A stretch of DNA of 58,592 nt from contig CANRLV010000007.1 in NCBI GenBank assembly GCA_947631565.1, positions 1 through 58,592 of the forward strand, given 5' to 3'. Shown here piece by piece: positions 6,493 to 34,777 of the stretch (positions are counted from its first letter, which is position 1; each line of letters begins with the position of its first letter). Below the pieces are notes generated by a model that had not been told where the DNA came from, searched no databases, and saw nothing but the letters and a program-made list of their open reading frames with translations. The stretch comes from an uncultured Gemmiger sp. (lineage in GTDB: Bacteria > Bacillota > Clostridia > Oscillospirales > Ruminococcaceae). Both the position numbers and the translations under genes were made by a program.

Positions 6493-6577
6493 TCTTCCGC
6501 GGACAGGCGCGCCCTGCCGCCAAGGCGCCCTTTGCCCCCCATATCCACCGCTGCGTGCCTGACCGTGCTGGACCTAT

Positions 6578-6636
6578 ACGAAAAAAGTAGACACGATCAT
6601 GCCCTATTTGTTATAATAAAACAGACACGAAAAAAG
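6578..6636 (+). repeat. Direct repeats around the restriction gene promoter
   Basis: ACGAAAAAAG occurs at 6578-6587 and again at 6627-6636; AGACACGA occurs at 6589-6596 and 6623-6630. They bracket the promoter and look like binding sites of a regulator, perhaps the lost controller protein. Confidence 0.5.
6588..6617 (+). promoter_or_regulatory. Promoter upstream of the restriction endonuclease gene
   Basis: TAGACA (6588-6593), 18-base spacer, perfect TATAAT (6612-6617). It would drive the small open frame at 6646 and the endonuclease gene at 6824. Confidence 0.7.
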
Positions 6637-6645
6637 AGGTCCCCT

Positions 6646-6771
6646 ATGGCAGCAAACAGCTGCAGATGGCTGTACAATACCGAAGACCGCCGTCGTGAAG
6701 CCGTCATAAAAAATGCAAAAAATGGAAGCCATACAGCGCTATTGCTGCCCATTGCTTATAGCAAGCTTTAG
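6646..6771 (+). CDS. Possible small leader ORF (41 aa)
   Basis: A 41-codon open frame starts with ATG 29 bases behind a perfect TATAAT box and has AGAGGT eight bases upstream. The peptide is basic in the middle and hydrophobic at the end (TALLLPIAYSKL). I do not recognise it. It fills part of the 480-base interval between the GH35 and endonuclease genes; the rest of that interval holds the two promoters and the operator. It may be a real leader peptide, a relic, or chance. Confidence 0.3.
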   Translation: MAANSCRWLYNTEDRRREAVIKNAKNGSHTALLLPIAYSKL

Positions 6772-6823
6772 AGCGCGGCTTAAAGAACGAAAAATTTCAC
6801 CTGTCTAAAGGAAGGACTGCACA

Positions 6824-8083
6824 ATGACATTAAAAGAGTACTTCGTAGAAAATATTAAAACCGGAAGAATTGGAGAAATCGGGCAAAAAGCGATCGACTA
6901 CTATAAGGTCCCAAGAGTGGAAGATTTATCAGCACAACAAAAGCTGGACTCTTTATGCACTGCCGCAGATGTGTCCCCCGCCTTATTGGATGAAATCATT
7001 TCGTCCAATTCTCCTGTGCTGCGCACCGTAAAAGGACATGCCTTTGAAACAGTATTTGGTAAAATCATGGATAGCAATGGCATAGTCTGTGACGATATCG
7101 GCGGTGACGGAGATGTTGACCTTACAGTGAATGGAAATACGCTCCAATGCAAAACACCGTATGCCGCCGGCTGTAACGAAACAACTGTTTCCTATAAAAC
7201 CCATAAGACGCATGGTGCAAAATCCAAATTGGAATCCATGGACTATTACCACCACGTCGCCGATTTCGCGGATTATCTGGTAGGTTTGGTTTCGTATGAG
7301 CCCTTCCAGGTATTGATTGTCCCCAAGAGCGATCTTCCCCGTGTGCCTGCTTCCAATGTTCACATTGCAAGTCCGATGTTTTTACCGATCAATGGGCCTT
7401 ATCTAAATGCATTTGACAAAATAGGAATTACCAAAAAACTCTCTATTCCATCGACAATCACAACACCTTCGGCCTCTGAGCTCCTGCCCAAATCCGCCAA
7501 GGTCATGAAATTGAAAAGTGAATATATTTTGGAGACCATTTTCAGAGTGGAAAATTTCCGAATTTGGGATATGAATATGCGCGGGTTTATCCGGGAAGCC
7601 GTCTTACACCAAATGTTCACTGAGAATCGGATCAAAGTTTATGATCCCATAAAGCTCGGCCTTGAACGCGCAGATAAAGCCGACCTTGTGCTGAAGGATG
7701 CGCAAAAGAGGGATGTACGTTTTCAAGTTAAAGGACTAACATATAATGGTTGTGTATTCGATGGTACTGATTCCATCATTGACTGTGAAACCCAACTCTC
7801 GCGCGGACGTGTCAACGATCACCCTACCCAAAGCCGTCTATACATGACTACCGATTTTGAATATGTGATAATGGCCATAGACCCTGCTTACTCAAATCAG
7901 TTTCGTCGTGAATGCTGCAAAACGAATGACTACAACTGGCATTTTTACTGTGTTCCTACAGCAGATCTGAGAAAACATCCCGACTATCCAGGACGGATAT
8001 TTTCTCATCAACGACCAAAATACACCGCACTCCAAAAATATCTTATTGACAGCAATTGGATCGGGCTATGGTCTAAATTCTAA
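6824..8083 (+). CDS. Putative type II restriction endonuclease with two PD-(D/E)xK-like motifs
   Basis: A 419-residue soluble protein that I recognise by context and motifs rather than by family name. Two segments each follow the nuclease pattern helix-E, beta-D, beta-QxK: E75, D99 and Q108-C-K110 (GDVDLTVNGNTLQCK), then E258, D287 and Q301-V-K303 (ADLVL ... RFQVKG). It faces two adenine methylases, with which its 3' end overlaps by 18 bases. GGAAGGA precedes the ATG. The role as the endonuclease that cuts unmethylated DNA is inferred; one of the two nuclease-like domains could be inactive or serve in target recognition. Codon use is AT-rich, unlike neighbours outside the island. Confidence 0.7.
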   Translation: MTLKEYFVENIKTGRIGEIGQKAIDYYKVPRVEDLSAQQKLDSLCTAADVSPALLDEIISSNSPVLRTVKGHAFETVFGKIMDSNGIVCDDIGGDGDVDLTVNGNTLQCKTPYAAGCNETTVSYKTHKTHGAKSKLESMDYYHHVADFADYLVGLVSYEPFQVLIVPKSDLPRVPASNVHIASPMFLPINGPYLNAFDKIGITKKLSIPSTITTPSASELLPKSAKVMKLKSEYILETIFRVENFRIWDMNMRGFIREAVLHQMFTENRIKVYDPIKLGLERADKADLVLKDAQKRDVRFQVKGLTYNGCVFDGTDSIIDCETQLSRGRVNDHPTQSRLYMTTDFEYVIMAIDPAYSNQFRRECCKTNDYNWHFYCVPTADLRKHPDYPGRIFSHQRPKYTALQKYLIDSNWIGLWSKF

Positions 8084-30173: not shown

Positions 30174-30401
30174 TCACTTCACAAGGCTTTTTACATAAGC
30201 GATGAGGCGGTCCTTGTTGCCGAAGTTTTCCTCGGTAATGTCGGCCGCATCGATCTCGATGTCGAAAGTGTTCTCAAGACGCCCGACCAGCGTAATAAGT
30301 TCAAAGGAATCGATGATATCGTCCGCCACCATATTATCGCCGGTGTAGGTCAGAAGTTCATCATTTGCGTTTTCGAGAATAGCAAGTATTTTTTCTTCCA
30401 T
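30174..30401 (-). CDS. Acyl carrier protein (DltC-like)
   Basis: A 75-residue carrier protein with the phosphopantetheine serine S32 in DDIIDSFELITLV, acidic helices and a size close to DltC. It should hold an acyl or aminoacyl group as a thioester after 4'-phosphopantetheine attachment. ATG 30401 follows AGGAGA; an upstream in-frame ATG lacks a site. It is the last gene of the adenylation/MBOAT cluster but has a promoter-like element of its own in the 155-base gap before it. Confidence 0.9.
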   Translation of the reverse strand: MEEKILAILENANDELLTYTGDNMVADDIIDSFELITLVGRLENTFDIEIDAADITEENFGNKDRLIAYVKSLVK

Positions 30402-30442
30402 TTTAGTACATCTCCTGTCGTTTGGTTTCATTTGGCTTGTAT

Positions 30443-30471
30443 TTTATCAGTAAAACAGCGCGGTCTTTCAA
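30443..30471 (-). promoter_or_regulatory. Possible internal promoter of the carrier protein gene
   Basis: Minus strand TTGAAA (30471-30466), 17-base spacer, GATAAA (overlapping TAAAAT). Confidence 0.45.
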
Positions 30472-30556
30472 ACTTACTGCTTACTGTATCTACCTGTAGG
30501 CTTTGTCTATTCAGCTTTTTGGGCGGCATCACCCGGCTTTCCGATATTCATAGGTC

Positions 30557-31156
30557 TTATCGATTCCCTCTTATTCGTTTGTGCGCGTCCTCTTCGGCGA
30601 GCTGCTGACCTTTGTCTCGAATCTTATCGATTTTTCTTTGGCAAAGTTTCCGCAGCTTATGAGTGGCAGCACAAACATACATACCGCCGGGCGGTGTGGA
30701 CTCGTTGATCATACTCATCGCCCCAAAGGAGCAGCCCTCTCCCAGACAAACACCCGGAAGCACCACACTATGTGTGCCAATTATGACAAACCGTTCCAGG
30801 CAGATATCTTTCTGCGTTATCCATCTGTATCGGCGAGGAATGGCCGGGCCAGGAAGATACGGACCAACGTACTCGTCCGTCAATGCATACAGCGAGGTAT
30901 GTGACGAGATCGCGCAGCAATCGCCGATGATGATCGTCGATTGGTCCCCGGTAAGCAACTCACAATGGGAACTGATATGGACGTGATCACCGATCATGAT
31001 CGTGCCGTCCAAAATGGTGAAATCATCGATCAGGACATAATTCCCAAGACGTATTTTCCGGGGCGTCAGGATGCTGCAGGTCTTGCTGATCAGCACCTGC
31101 TGTCCGATCTCCTTAAAGCCTATGGCCCGCAATTCATCTTCAGAATAGTAACGCAA
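30557..31156 (-). CDS. Hexapeptide-repeat acyltransferase (WbbJ/LacA type)
   Basis: A 199-residue left-handed beta-helix acyltransferase. Repeats run from about residue 22 to 150 (LISKTCSIL, IRLGNYVLIDDF, TIMIGDHVHISSH, IIIGDCCAISSH, VVLPGVCLGEGCSFGAMS). The usual catalytic histidine lies in SSHTSLYA or the nearby SSHCEL. Start codon is TTG with GGGGG eight bases upstream. It is part of the Dlt-like cluster and, like it, richer in A and T than the flanks. It probably acetylates a sugar or the product of the cluster with acetyl-CoA. Confidence 0.85.
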   Translation of the reverse strand: MRYYSEDELRAIGFKEIGQQVLISKTCSILTPRKIRLGNYVLIDDFTILDGTIMIGDHVHISSHCELLTGDQSTIIIGDCCAISSHTSLYALTDEYVGPYLPGPAIPRRYRWITQKDICLERFVIIGTHSVVLPGVCLGEGCSFGAMSMINESTPPGGMYVCAATHKLRKLCQRKIDKIRDKGQQLAEEDAHKRIRGNR

Positions 31157-31208
31157 ATCCGGTTCCCCCTGTCAAAATCCTGTTTGAGAGGGGTACCGTT
31201 CCAAAGCA

Positions 31209-31713
31209 TTACTTTGCGGCGGTCACCTTTTTCATCATCAGCGTTTCCGTAACGCCCCGACGAAACAGGTTCTCCAATTTTGTAAGCCCTACATAACCGC
31301 GATCGCTATAAAATTTCTCGGCAGAACTGTTAAAGTCTCCTACCGTCAAAAACGCCTTCGTTCGCAGCTGGTTTTTGCCGTTTTTTAAAATGTCCTGCTC
31401 AAAGAAATCCATCAATTCCGTCCCAATGCCCTGCCTGCGGCATCCGTCTTTCACCGCGATCATATGGAGATATGGGAAGGAGTGGAACATACCCTCTCGT
31501 TGATACCATATAAGACCAAGCGTATCTAGATCACTGTCTACCCCCCCCCCGCTTTTTATCTTTCATAAGGTATATCTCATCGGTTTGGATACCCTGCTCA
31601 ACCGCCTCACGCATAAGCTCCCGAAGGGGGTAATAGGTGTGGCCGAGCGCAGAGGAAAAAAGGATGTCCACACAGGGTTCCAAATCCATCTTGCTTGCTC
31701 TTGCGATCATCAT
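31209..31713 (-). pseudogene. GNAT acetyltransferase, out of frame at a ten-G tract (phase-variable candidate)
   Basis: Two adjoining frames make one GNAT protein. The first gives MMIARASKMDLEPCVDIL and reaches a run of ten G (coding strand, 31550-31541), after which it stops within three codons. The second continues from there with DSDLDTLGLIWYQREG, the acetyl-CoA loop VKDGCRRQGIGTEL and a normal C-terminus. Nine G instead of ten restore one 167-residue frame. ATG 31713 follows AAAGGAGA, and the stop of the adenylation enzyme lies just before it. Either the gene is switched off in this cell by slippage, or the read of the tract is one base too long. Confidence 0.85.
31541..31550. repeat. Homopolymer of ten G (coding strand) in the GNAT gene
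   Basis: Ten C on the plus strand. Such a run is rare within coding sequence and prone to slippage; its present length breaks the reading frame. Confidence 0.95.
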
Positions 31714-31723
31714 AACGTCTCCT

Positions 31724-33253
31724 TTACGCAAGATACTCCTGGCGGAGCCTTACACGGTCTATCTTGCCGTTGGCATTCAGCGGCAATTTGTCTACGCAAA
31801 TCACTTTACCGGGCAGCATATAATCCGGAACAAGATCGCGGATCTTGCTGTTTATTTCGCTGCGGCGAAATTCCTGCTCCAGGAAAAGAACGATCTTGCT
31901 GTTTTTATCATCGTACAGGCAGCAGCACATGGAGATCTCTTCGAGGGACGAGACCGCCGTCTCTATCTCACCAAGCTCTATACGGTGTCCGAGGTGCTTT
32001 ATCTGGAAATCCTTGCGCGACAGATAGATGATCTCGTGGCGCTCATTGTATTTTACCAGATCTCCGGTTCGATAGATCTTTTCCTGATATGCGGTTTGCA
32101 GCGGATTCTGTACAAAGGCCGCCGCGGTCCTCTCAGGGTCATTGTAATAGCCAGCCGCTAACGAGGTCCCACGCACACAGAGCTCGCCGATCTGCTCCGG
32201 CTCTGTGACCAGACGATTGTTTTCGTCCAGAACAAGGATCTCGGTGTTCCGCATGGGGCGGCCGATCGGAAGCGGTTCGTCGTCTGAGAATTCCCGATCC
32301 ACTTTATAAAAGGTACAGGCATCGGTTATTTCCGTAGGCCCGTAAAGATTCGCATACACAGCATCCGGCAGCCATGTCCGCCAAATGTTGAGCTGCTTGT
32401 TCGGCATGACTTCACCGCAGAAAAGAACGCGCTTCAGGTACCGGGATACATCCACATTCCGGAATGCCTTTAGCCCCGAGACCATGATCAGCGCGGAAGG
32501 GACCCAGAAGATCGTCGTTATCCTGTTGTCTACCAGAAATTGCAGCAGCTTGACCGGTTGGGAAAAGAGGCTTGCTGGTATGATATACAGCGCTGCGCCT
32601 GTTTTGACAGCCGAATAGATATCCAGTATCGAATTGTCAAAATAAAACGGCGCCTGATTGCCGAAGGAATCGTTCTCGGTAATGGAAAATTCGCTGGTCA
32701 CCCAATCTATGTAGTCTATAACGCTGCGATGGGTGATCGCCACGCCTTTCGGCGTTCCTGTGGAACCGGATGTAAACAAGACGTACAACAGGTCCGTATC
32801 AAGGATCCGGTCTGCATATTCTTTCGCCTTGTCATCACTGACAGCTTGGCTGGTCATCTCTTCAAAATAGAGGACCTTGCCCTGCGATGGGTACAGCGCC
32901 TTCAGGTCAGCAGTGCTTCCTTCAAGATCTTTTGTTGTTATAATGGCCGCCGGCTGTAAGGTTTGCAGTATCTTTTCAACTCTGGCATACGGCATATCGG
33001 TAGCGATTGGGCTGTAAAAGTTCCCGCTGTAGGCAATTCCCATGTACGCTGCCAGCATATCGGCAGATTTTTCCATATATACGGCCACCGGCAGCTTATG
33101 GCCTTGCAGCGCAGCATTGATTTCTTCTGCAATGGAAAGACCGGTACGCCGCAGTTCATCCCATGTATACTGTTTTTTCTCATCGACAAAAGCGATGCGA
33201 TCCGGGAAGCGTTTGGCTGTTGCCTCCAGCCACTGTACTACACTGTTTTGCAT
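31724..33253 (-). CDS. Amino-acid adenylating enzyme (DltA-like)
   Basis: A 509-residue AMP-forming enzyme, the length of DltA. Core motifs: LYVLFTSGSTGTPKGVAI (ATP loop), NLYGPTEITD, IYRTGDLVKY, GHRIELGEIE, and the catalytic lysine in LNANGKIDR near the C-terminus. It should activate an amino acid or other acid as adenylate and load it on the carrier protein encoded three genes later. AGGAAAGG precedes the ATG. D-alanine is the substrate of true DltA, but the pocket code was not resolved here, so the acid is open. Confidence 0.9.
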   Translation of the reverse strand: MQNSVVQWLEATAKRFPDRIAFVDEKKQYTWDELRRTGLSIAEEINAALQGHKLPVAVYMEKSADMLAAYMGIAYSGNFYSPIATDMPYARVEKILQTLQPAAIITTKDLEGSTADLKALYPSQGKVLYFEEMTSQAVSDDKAKEYADRILDTDLLYVLFTSGSTGTPKGVAITHRSVIDYIDWVTSEFSITENDSFGNQAPFYFDNSILDIYSAVKTGAALYIIPASLFSQPVKLLQFLVDNRITTIFWVPSALIMVSGLKAFRNVDVSRYLKRVLFCGEVMPNKQLNIWRTWLPDAVYANLYGPTEITDACTFYKVDREFSDDEPLPIGRPMRNTEILVLDENNRLVTEPEQIGELCVRGTSLAAGYYNDPERTAAAFVQNPLQTAYQEKIYRTGDLVKYNERHEIIYLSRKDFQIKHLGHRIELGEIETAVSSLEEISMCCCLYDDKNSKIVLFLEQEFRRSEINSKIRDLVPDYMLPGKVICVDKLPLNANGKIDRVRLRQEYLA

Positions 33254-33280
33254 TTTATTGCCTTTCCTTTCTGCAAATGC

Positions 33281-34777
33281 TTAAAATTGGCCATAGACAA
33301 AATATGTTTCGCCGAAATAAGCAAGCATAATCGTCAACCCGCATTCTATAAAAAAGCAGGTAAGTCCTGTCACTGTATTTAAATTGAAAATGGGGTAAAA
33401 GCCTTCTACCTTCTTTTTCCCGTTCTTTCGGGACTGTCGGCAGGCGATCATTGTCGCAGCAAACAAGACGGCATACGCAACGAAAGACCATATGTACGGC
33501 TGCGCCACACCGGCATTCCAGGAAAACATTCTTTTGAACATATAAAATGCCTGCCCAAGTGAATCGGACCGGAAAAATACCGAAACAAGGTTGAGCGTGA
33601 AATAGTTCGCAAGGATGTCGATCGCTATCAGCCACTCCGGTTTGCTCCTTATGAATTTTCTGTGTTTCGCCTTCATCCAAGTGGAATACGACCTGTGAAC
33701 GATCGATATGACACCCTGCAAAAGTCCCCACACAATAAATGTAAGCCCCGCGCCATGCCAAAGCCCGCTGAGAAAGAATGTTATGAGCATGGCTGCATAG
33801 GGTGGGATATTTATAAACCTTTCAAAATTATTCTTGGAAAATTTTGAAATGATATGATTCAATTTTGTCGCTGCCTTGTTGAATACATATTCATTCAGCC
33901 AAGAGGACAGCGAAATATGCCATCTGTCCCAGAATTCCGCAATATTGCGGGCCATGAAGGGCAGATTGAAATTGCGGGCGAGGTCGTAGCCAAACATCTT
34001 CGAGATGCCCACTGCCATATCGGAATAGCCGGAAAAATCAAAATACAGCTGCAGGAAATAGCTGAACACGGCCAGCCAGATCGTTGCCGTGCCATACGCG
34101 GCCGGCGCGTAGAATACATCATCTACAAAGACGGCCAGATGGTCGGCAAGAACGATTTTTTTAAACAGACCGAACACAAAGATCTGTACACCGACCGCAA
34201 GGCCATCAAGGGTGATCCTGCGGTCTTCTTTGAGCTGCGGCAAAAAATCCCGCGCGTTCACAATAGGGCCGCAGACCTGCTTGGGAAAGAAGGATAAAAA
34301 CAGAGCCATATCCAAAAGGCTTTGCTCGGCCTTCAGCTTTCCCCATGAAACATCCAGCACATAGCCGATAGCGGACAGCATATAAAACGAAATGCCCAAC
34401 GGCAGAATGATCTTGAGGTCAGACCACGTTTTCCCGGCCAGCATAAACGCTGTAGACATAAAAAAGTTCAGATATTTGAATACGCCCAAGACCGCAAGCA
34501 GAACCGTTACGGTAAACACCGTCAGCACATGCTTTGCTTTTCCTTGTGCGCGTTCAATACCTGAACCTGCAAAATAAGTTATCAAAATCACGCCCGTCAT
34601 GCACACGCAGTACCGTATATCGTACAGTGCCATGACAAGGTAACTAAATACCAGAAGGACAGTTTTAGCTAAAAGCCGTGATACCCCCCCCGGATTTCTA
34701 AAAACGCATTGGATCAAGGCAACTGCCGCGAGGAGCAATAGCGCGGCAGGATAGAACCAAATATCCACAAAAGACAT
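33281..34777 (-). CDS. MBOAT family membrane acyltransferase (DltB/AlgI-like)
   Basis: A 498-residue polytopic membrane protein with about ten to twelve helices. The MBOAT hallmark is the histidine in FFLSGLWHGAGLTF, and IAEFWDRWHISLSSWLNEYVF and FFPKQVCGPIVNARDF are typical of AlgI/DltB. It would hand an acyl group from the carrier protein across the membrane. It is the first gene of the cluster. A run of eight G (codons 29-32, P-G-G-V) near the 5' end is presently in frame; slippage would truncate the protein after about 35 residues. Confidence 0.93.
   Translation of the reverse strand: MSFVDIWFYPAALLLLAAVALIQCVFRNPGGVSRLLAKTVLLVFSYLVMALYDIRYCVCMTGVILITYFAGSGIERAQGKAKHVLTVFTVTVLLAVLGVFKYLNFFMSTAFMLAGKTWSDLKIILPLGISFYMLSAIGYVLDVSWGKLKAEQSLLDMALFLSFFPKQVCGPIVNARDFLPQLKEDRRITLDGLAVGVQIFVFGLFKKIVLADHLAVFVDDVFYAPAAYGTATIWLAVFSYFLQLYFDFSGYSDMAVGISKMFGYDLARNFNLPFMARNIAEFWDRWHISLSSWLNEYVFNKAATKLNHIISKFSKNNFERFINIPPYAAMLITFFLSGLWHGAGLTFIVWGLLQGVISIVHRSYSTWMKAKHRKFIRSKPEWLIAIDILANYFTLNLVSVFFRSDSLGQAFYMFKRMFSWNAGVAQPYIWSFVAYAVLFAATMIACRQSRKNGKKKVEGFYPIFNLNTVTGLTCFFIECGLTIMLAYFGETYFVYGQF
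34684..34691. repeat. Homopolymer of eight G (coding strand) in the MBOAT gene
   Basis: Eight C on the plus strand at codons 29-32 of the MBOAT gene, in the first tenth of the reading frame. Confidence 0.95.

Follow-up and report, generated by a model that had tools for sequence, protein, structure and literature searches.

A ten-G tract as a probable contingency switch of a GNAT acyltransferase gene in an uncultured Gemmiger

A GNAT acyltransferase gene of an uncultured Gemmiger sp. is broken in its assembled form by a run of ten G, and comparison with related genomes makes it very probable that this run is a hypermutable poly-G contingency switch. The gene lies in a stretch of 58,592 nucleotides, which we call the window. 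Phase variation of the gene had been suggested in an earlier note on this DNA, and the suggestion gains support from tracts of eight, nine and ten G at the same site, from a genome-wide set of such tracts and from constraint on the sequence past the tract.

On the plus strand, an A at 31540 is followed by ten C at 31541-31550 and a G at 31551; the minus strand reads C-G10-TAGACAG. The N-terminal part of the gene begins at 31713 (MMIARASK...KDKKRGGGRQ) and ends in the assembled frame at a stop at 31531. The C-terminal part, VDSDLDTLGLIWYQ...KKVTAAK (VDSDLDT...VTAAK), is in another frame that has no internal stop and ends at 31209. The two frames meet at the tract one base apart, and the claim that the tenth G breaks the frame is thereby confirmed. 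Placed in this way, the tract turns the frame on or off with a length change of one unit. It stands in the first third of the gene, where a frame break removes the GNAT domain: the C-terminal part alone is above the Pfam cutoffs for Acetyltransf_7 (1.5e-8), Acetyltransf_1 (3.1e-8) and Acetyltransf_10 (8.3e-8), the scores for these GNAT families being 35.3 against 27, 34.3 against 20.7 and 32.7 against 23.6 bits, and the 54-residue N-terminal part alone has no Pfam match. The short product of the assembled state should be inactive, because the C-terminal part holds RRQGIG, which we take to be the acetyl-CoA motif. Within the 58.6 kb window, no other G/C run reaches nine, and the only other one of at least eight is in the same operon (Table 1).

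Table 1. Positions in the window of the tracts and of the genes around them
Feature	Position	Strand	Remark
G10 tract (C10 on the plus strand), putative switch	31541..31550	-	G-strand flanks C...TA
GNAT acyltransferase gene; in the assembly, its frame changes at the G10 tract	31209..31713	-	
Truncated frame at the assembled tract length (G10)	31531..31713	-	60 aa by arithmetic
Likely ribosome-binding site (AGGAG) for the GNAT	31719..31723	-	
MBOAT (DltB-like) O-acyltransferase gene	33281..34777	-	Pfam MBOAT 3.3e-25
DltA-like AMP-forming ligase gene	31724..33253	-	Pfam AMP-binding 2.9e-68
Hexapeptide-repeat acyltransferase gene	30557..31156	-	Pfam Hexapep 7.7e-13
Carrier protein (ACP/DltC-like) gene	30174..30431	-	PP-binding 7.2e-4, 20.2 bits, slightly under the cutoff of 20.8
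Additional C-G8-TA tract, close to the MBOAT gene start	34684..34691	-	Frame open at G8

On the minus strand, the GNAT gene is third in the order MBOAT, DltA-like ligase, GNAT, hexapeptide transferase and carrier protein. The adjoining ligase, carrier protein and MBOAT genes are reminiscent of the dlt operon for D-alanylation of teichoic acids. Unlike in that operon, the ligase and the MBOAT protein miss the DltA and DltB equivalog cutoffs (320.2 bits against 559.85 for TIGR01734, and 173.7 against 375 for TIGR04091), and there are additional GNAT and hexapeptide genes; the ligase is above the cutoff for TIGR01733 with 344.5 bits. GC content in 500-base bins is 45-53% over the operon genes, compared with 58-73% in those adjacent bins that were examined. 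Because of this low GC amid a GC-rich region, the operon (window 30174-34777) has the appearance of an acquired one and is likely to be so.

A scan of the genome_contigs collection for the ligase gave 468 relatives, of which the best 80 loci were kept; in most of these, carrier-protein matches (tblastn) adjoin the ligase. A GNAT gene like that of the window directly follows the ligase in two of the 80, with the same result in a repeat search at E 1e-3, although some of the other loci end shortly past the ligase and the GNAT comparison is one of three MAGs. In the first relative (L152, Oscillospiraceae MAG, Lapin-021 bin7), the tract is C-G9-TA at 6699 and the gene is intact, an ON allele of 168 aa (6538-7044) with 58% identity to the window. 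In the second (L154, Oscillospiraceae MAG, Lapin-004 bin81), C-G8-TA is found at 6706 and the frame breaks there; identity to the window is 44% before the tract and 68% after it. The count of tract lengths proposed in the earlier note, carried out on these relatives, thus gives G9 and G8 at the site where the window has G10, rather than nine G in all relatives. The residues around the tract vary (KDKKRGG, KIAAGGG and NTRGG), while the G run is kept. After the tract, the window and L154 differ at 26, 15 and 52 first, second and third codon positions in 98 codons. From this excess at third positions, it follows that the far part has been selected as a protein for much of its history.

These comparisons bear on the possibility that the gene is a recent pseudogene of this strain, without a way back. 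Such a reading fits the broken frame, and an operon that looks acquired may well be dispensable, but it leaves unexplained the codon-wise constraint after the tract and the other lengths that relatives have at the same site. Further inactivating changes, which the earlier note had seen as speaking against a switch, are absent from both frames of the window gene. We therefore give the pseudogene very little credence. A third account places the slippage in the RNA or the ribosome: long homopolymers can provoke frameshifting or transcript slippage, and some full-length GNAT might in this way be made from the broken frame. Such slippage is compatible with a switch in the DNA, the OFF state of which it could also blur. 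As an explanation in its own right it is improbable, since it does not by itself account for three DNA lengths at one site or for tracts in promoter spacers (see below), where no frame is read.

Weighing against a switch, the GNAT gene has few relatives in the genomes searched. The window kind is absent from the 34 other genomes of the genus, no close relative was found in the 393 other genomes of the order sample, and the GNAT protein, used as query against the genome_contigs collection, gave no relative. Outside its own genome, the genus and order searches gave seven matches, all at 31-41% identity. The four that were opened (L027-L030) are in other gene neighbourhoods by eye and were rejected as counterparts; their aligned loop is without Gly-Gly at the place of the tract and is 6-7 residues shorter in three of them. 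An AlphaFold model of the L152 protein, made without alignment, was too poor for use (mean pLDDT 43.7).

The tract is one of many in its genome. Runs of exactly seven, eight, nine and ten G number 27, 9, 12 and 6, and longer runs are absent; the numbers drop from G7 to G8 and climb again at G9 to a second peak at 9-10, which is what an equilibrium tract length would give. The 18 tracts of nine or ten G also share their flanks, with a T after the run in 18/18 and a C before it in 17/18, the sole exception being a G9 run with T...T flanks. C...T flanks are found in none of the 27 G7 runs, in 4/9 at G8, in 11/12 at G9 and in 6/6 at G10 (Fisher p 1.6e-11 for 9-10 G against G7). Against a codon effect behind the flanks stands the occurrence of tracts in genes of either orientation as well as in promoters. 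Repeated spacers on contig C6 had raised the idea of a mobile repeat with the tracts at its ends; this was dropped, as by eye most other tracts have little in common apart from the flanks.

An erroneous tenth G would leave the GNAT gene intact in the cell, and the material invites this explanation: the genome is a draft of 140 contigs that is 89% complete, homopolymer lengths are error-prone, and trouble in sequencing G tracts is described in the available text of one study (PMC9187656). Nevertheless, a single error does not explain the 17 further tracts of 9-10 G with fixed flanks in the same genome, nor why two other genomes, in one of which the gene is likewise out of frame, have a long run of G at the corresponding site, and Illumina reads are said to be accurate for such poly-G lengths in most draft genomes (PMC6321876, in the sections available). 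An error of sequencing or assembly is accordingly most improbable.

Several of the other tracts of this genome touch surface-related genes. Two acyltransferase-3 genes are apparently split (L011 and L017; far parts at 1.4e-22 and 3.9e-24, near parts matched by eye), as is a DUF4956 gene (L010). Tracts are also found at the start of a CotH gene (L021) and upstream of a T2SSE ATPase (L016) and a pilin (L015), and a cytidylyltransferase cluster (L012, contig C6:41800-50000) has gene-end tracts, three of 9 G and one of 8. On the other side of the balance, non-surface genes carry tracts as well, namely a permease in which the tract is in frame (L019), an ATP-grasp-like gene below the Pfam cutoffs (L022) and a phage small terminase gene, phrog_57, with the tract at its start (L023, contig C99). 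The strand of the gene carries C at L011, L015, L016, L021 and L023 and G at others, in an assignment that is partly by eye and leaves out five tracts (L013, L014, L018, L020 and L024). At one such site in the own genome, the G8 frame continues as far as a stop codon shared in part with the following start (ATGA), and tract length might there switch translational coupling to the next gene. A comparable gene-end tract, of the C-G8/9-T type, is present in a cytidylyltransferase cluster at L154:1850.

The spread of the flank rule was followed by counting C-G9-T against the same pattern reversed as control. Within the genus, C-G9-T is present in 11/35 genomes, with 33 sites against 9 reversed; the own genome has 11 against 0 and G050 7 against 0. 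In the order sample, 58/295 genomes have it, with 126 sites against 26 reversed as counted from the table (115 against 26 without the own genome); most genomes have none, and eight besides the own have 4-9. Among the matches listed for G307, exact C-Gn-TA runs with n from 6 to 11 number 3, 3, 1, 3, 5 and 1. The rule holds in some species but not genus-wide, as C...T flanks are found in only 21 of 51 G9 runs in ten genus genomes picked from the C-G9-T count (7/12 in G050 and 14/39 in the other nine). Among the 80 ligase loci (best of 468), which were not selected for tracts, runs of at least eight are C...T in 8/12, divided as 7/7 in L152-L154 and 1/5 in the others. Pooling all distinct runs of eight or more gives C...T in 87/118, where the 87 were deduplicated, came largely from loci chosen for C-G9-T and exclude tracts close to locus ends.

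A subset of tracts is placed in promoters. In five loci of other genomes (L041, L049, L089, L111 and L123), C-G9 tracts occupy the spacer that separates a TTGACA-like from a TATAAT-like box, and the final T of the flank is also the first base of the -10 box; by their position, these are likely to be transcriptional switches. The class is modest: it takes in 8 of the 87 C...T tracts, where 50 shuffles gave 2.4 on average and 7 at most, and a search of viral contigs for the promoter-spacer pattern gave no match. In genome G136, two C-G9-TA spacers that are alike (L116 and L117) precede starts of the form ATGAAA.CTGCCA by about 60 bases; by eye, they resemble the L012 spacers.

A further proposal, tentative and in our estimate rather unlikely to hold, is that poly-G switches in part of the order are a distinct element of the form C-G(8-11)-T(A) rather than any overgrown G run. 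On this view, the recurrence of the flanks in genes of both orientations, in promoter spacers and at gene ends would point to a dedicated factor, or to a repair or replication bias specific to the lineage, that makes, keeps or recognises the tracts.

Length differences are seen at other sites. The sibling species G017 has G6 where the permease has G9, a difference of three bases, and G8 in place of G9 in the pilin leader. Of 24 viral relatives of the phage small terminase gene, some have G runs near the corresponding place and 14 are without a run of seven or more G in the stretch examined; the copy in the own genome has a run of C on the strand of the gene. Two viral contigs with 94.3% identity over 4.7 kb have G8 and G9 (L262 and L265), and two with 99.9% identity over 3.0 kb have G15 and G14 with T...C flanks (L270 and L275), a difference that may stem from misreading. 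L267 and L269, like the four contigs just named, also carry a G or C tract where this gene begins.

The neighbours of the GNAT gene in the two relatives give an indication of its role. In L152, the unit is accompanied by a DegT aminotransferase, a hexapeptide transferase that C-G10-T seems, by eye, to split close to the start, formyltransferases, a PIG-L deacetylase whose gene ends in C-G9-T, and a bacterial sugar transferase. L154 has HMGL-like genes, one ending in C-G8-T, a cytidylyltransferase and a formyltransferase. Since sugar and glycan genes surround the ligase-GNAT unit in both, surface glycan clusters are pointed to. Of the two roles put forward previously, surface or metabolite acylation, these neighbours favour the surface, and metabolite acylation is the less supported. 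Near a related ligase, two C-G8-T tracts are seen at L153:9762 and L153:10713, one ending a FabA-like (hotdog) gene and the other at an apparent frame break in a similar gene.

A contingency switch in the GNAT gene would work as follows. Replication slippage would add or remove a G, such that the gene would be read through at G9, as in L152, and stop just past the tract at G10 (window) or G8 (L154), presumably in a reversible manner. Perhaps the carrier protein receives an acyl or amino-acid group from the ligase, the GNAT acylates either this group or the sugar acceptor, and the MBOAT protein transfers the group to a surface glycan. The switch would then toggle one surface decoration, and two steps could vary independently because a second tract sits in the MBOAT gene.

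Pathogens provide the best-known slippage switches. The closest parallel in number is the poly-G/C phasome of Campylobacter, with many tracts per genome, mostly for frame switching, and a peak at 9-10 (length 9 in 53% and 10 in 26%; PMC6321876, available text). The own genome shows the same length profile, with a peak at 9-10 and fewer tracts at eight. It differs in its unrelated lineage, in the C...T flanks of 17/18 tracts and apparently in several tracts with C on the strand of the gene, compared with 5% of ORF tracts in Campylobacter according to the same text. In the gut commensal Bifidobacterium breve, an intragenic G10-G11 tract likewise splits a surface gene into two frames. That gene encodes a pilin of a sortase-pilus switch rather than an acyltransferase, and mixed tract lengths were measured in the population by maximum depth sequencing, whereas the lengths given here are from assemblies alone (PMC9187656, available text). 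The gene-end tracts of L012 and L154 are similar to the 3´-end tracts for C-terminal switching in Helicobacter canadensis, from which the window tract differs by its place in the first third and the removal of the domain (PMC2823697, available text). Surface-sugar acylation is switched on and off also by oafA of Haemophilus influenzae and oafB of Salmonella, but these are acyltransferase-3 enzymes and the Salmonella mechanism is epigenetic (PMC9558356, as far as its available text goes). In the literature searched, a genome-wide tract set in gut Clostridia of this order is unreported, the Bifidobacterium case being nearest, and no paper states a C...T flank rule for poly-G tracts; contingency loci of the Campylobacter and Bifidobacterium kind are known, and the flanks are the part without an account.

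In conclusion, if the tract is a contingency switch, commensals of this lineage would randomly shuffle pili, surface sugars and acyl decorations, with a bearing on phage escape, immune recognition and strain persistence. Annotation pipelines would label genes switched in this way as broken. The C...T flanks provide a simple pattern by which such switches may be listed in MAGs, and by which it may be asked what maintains them.
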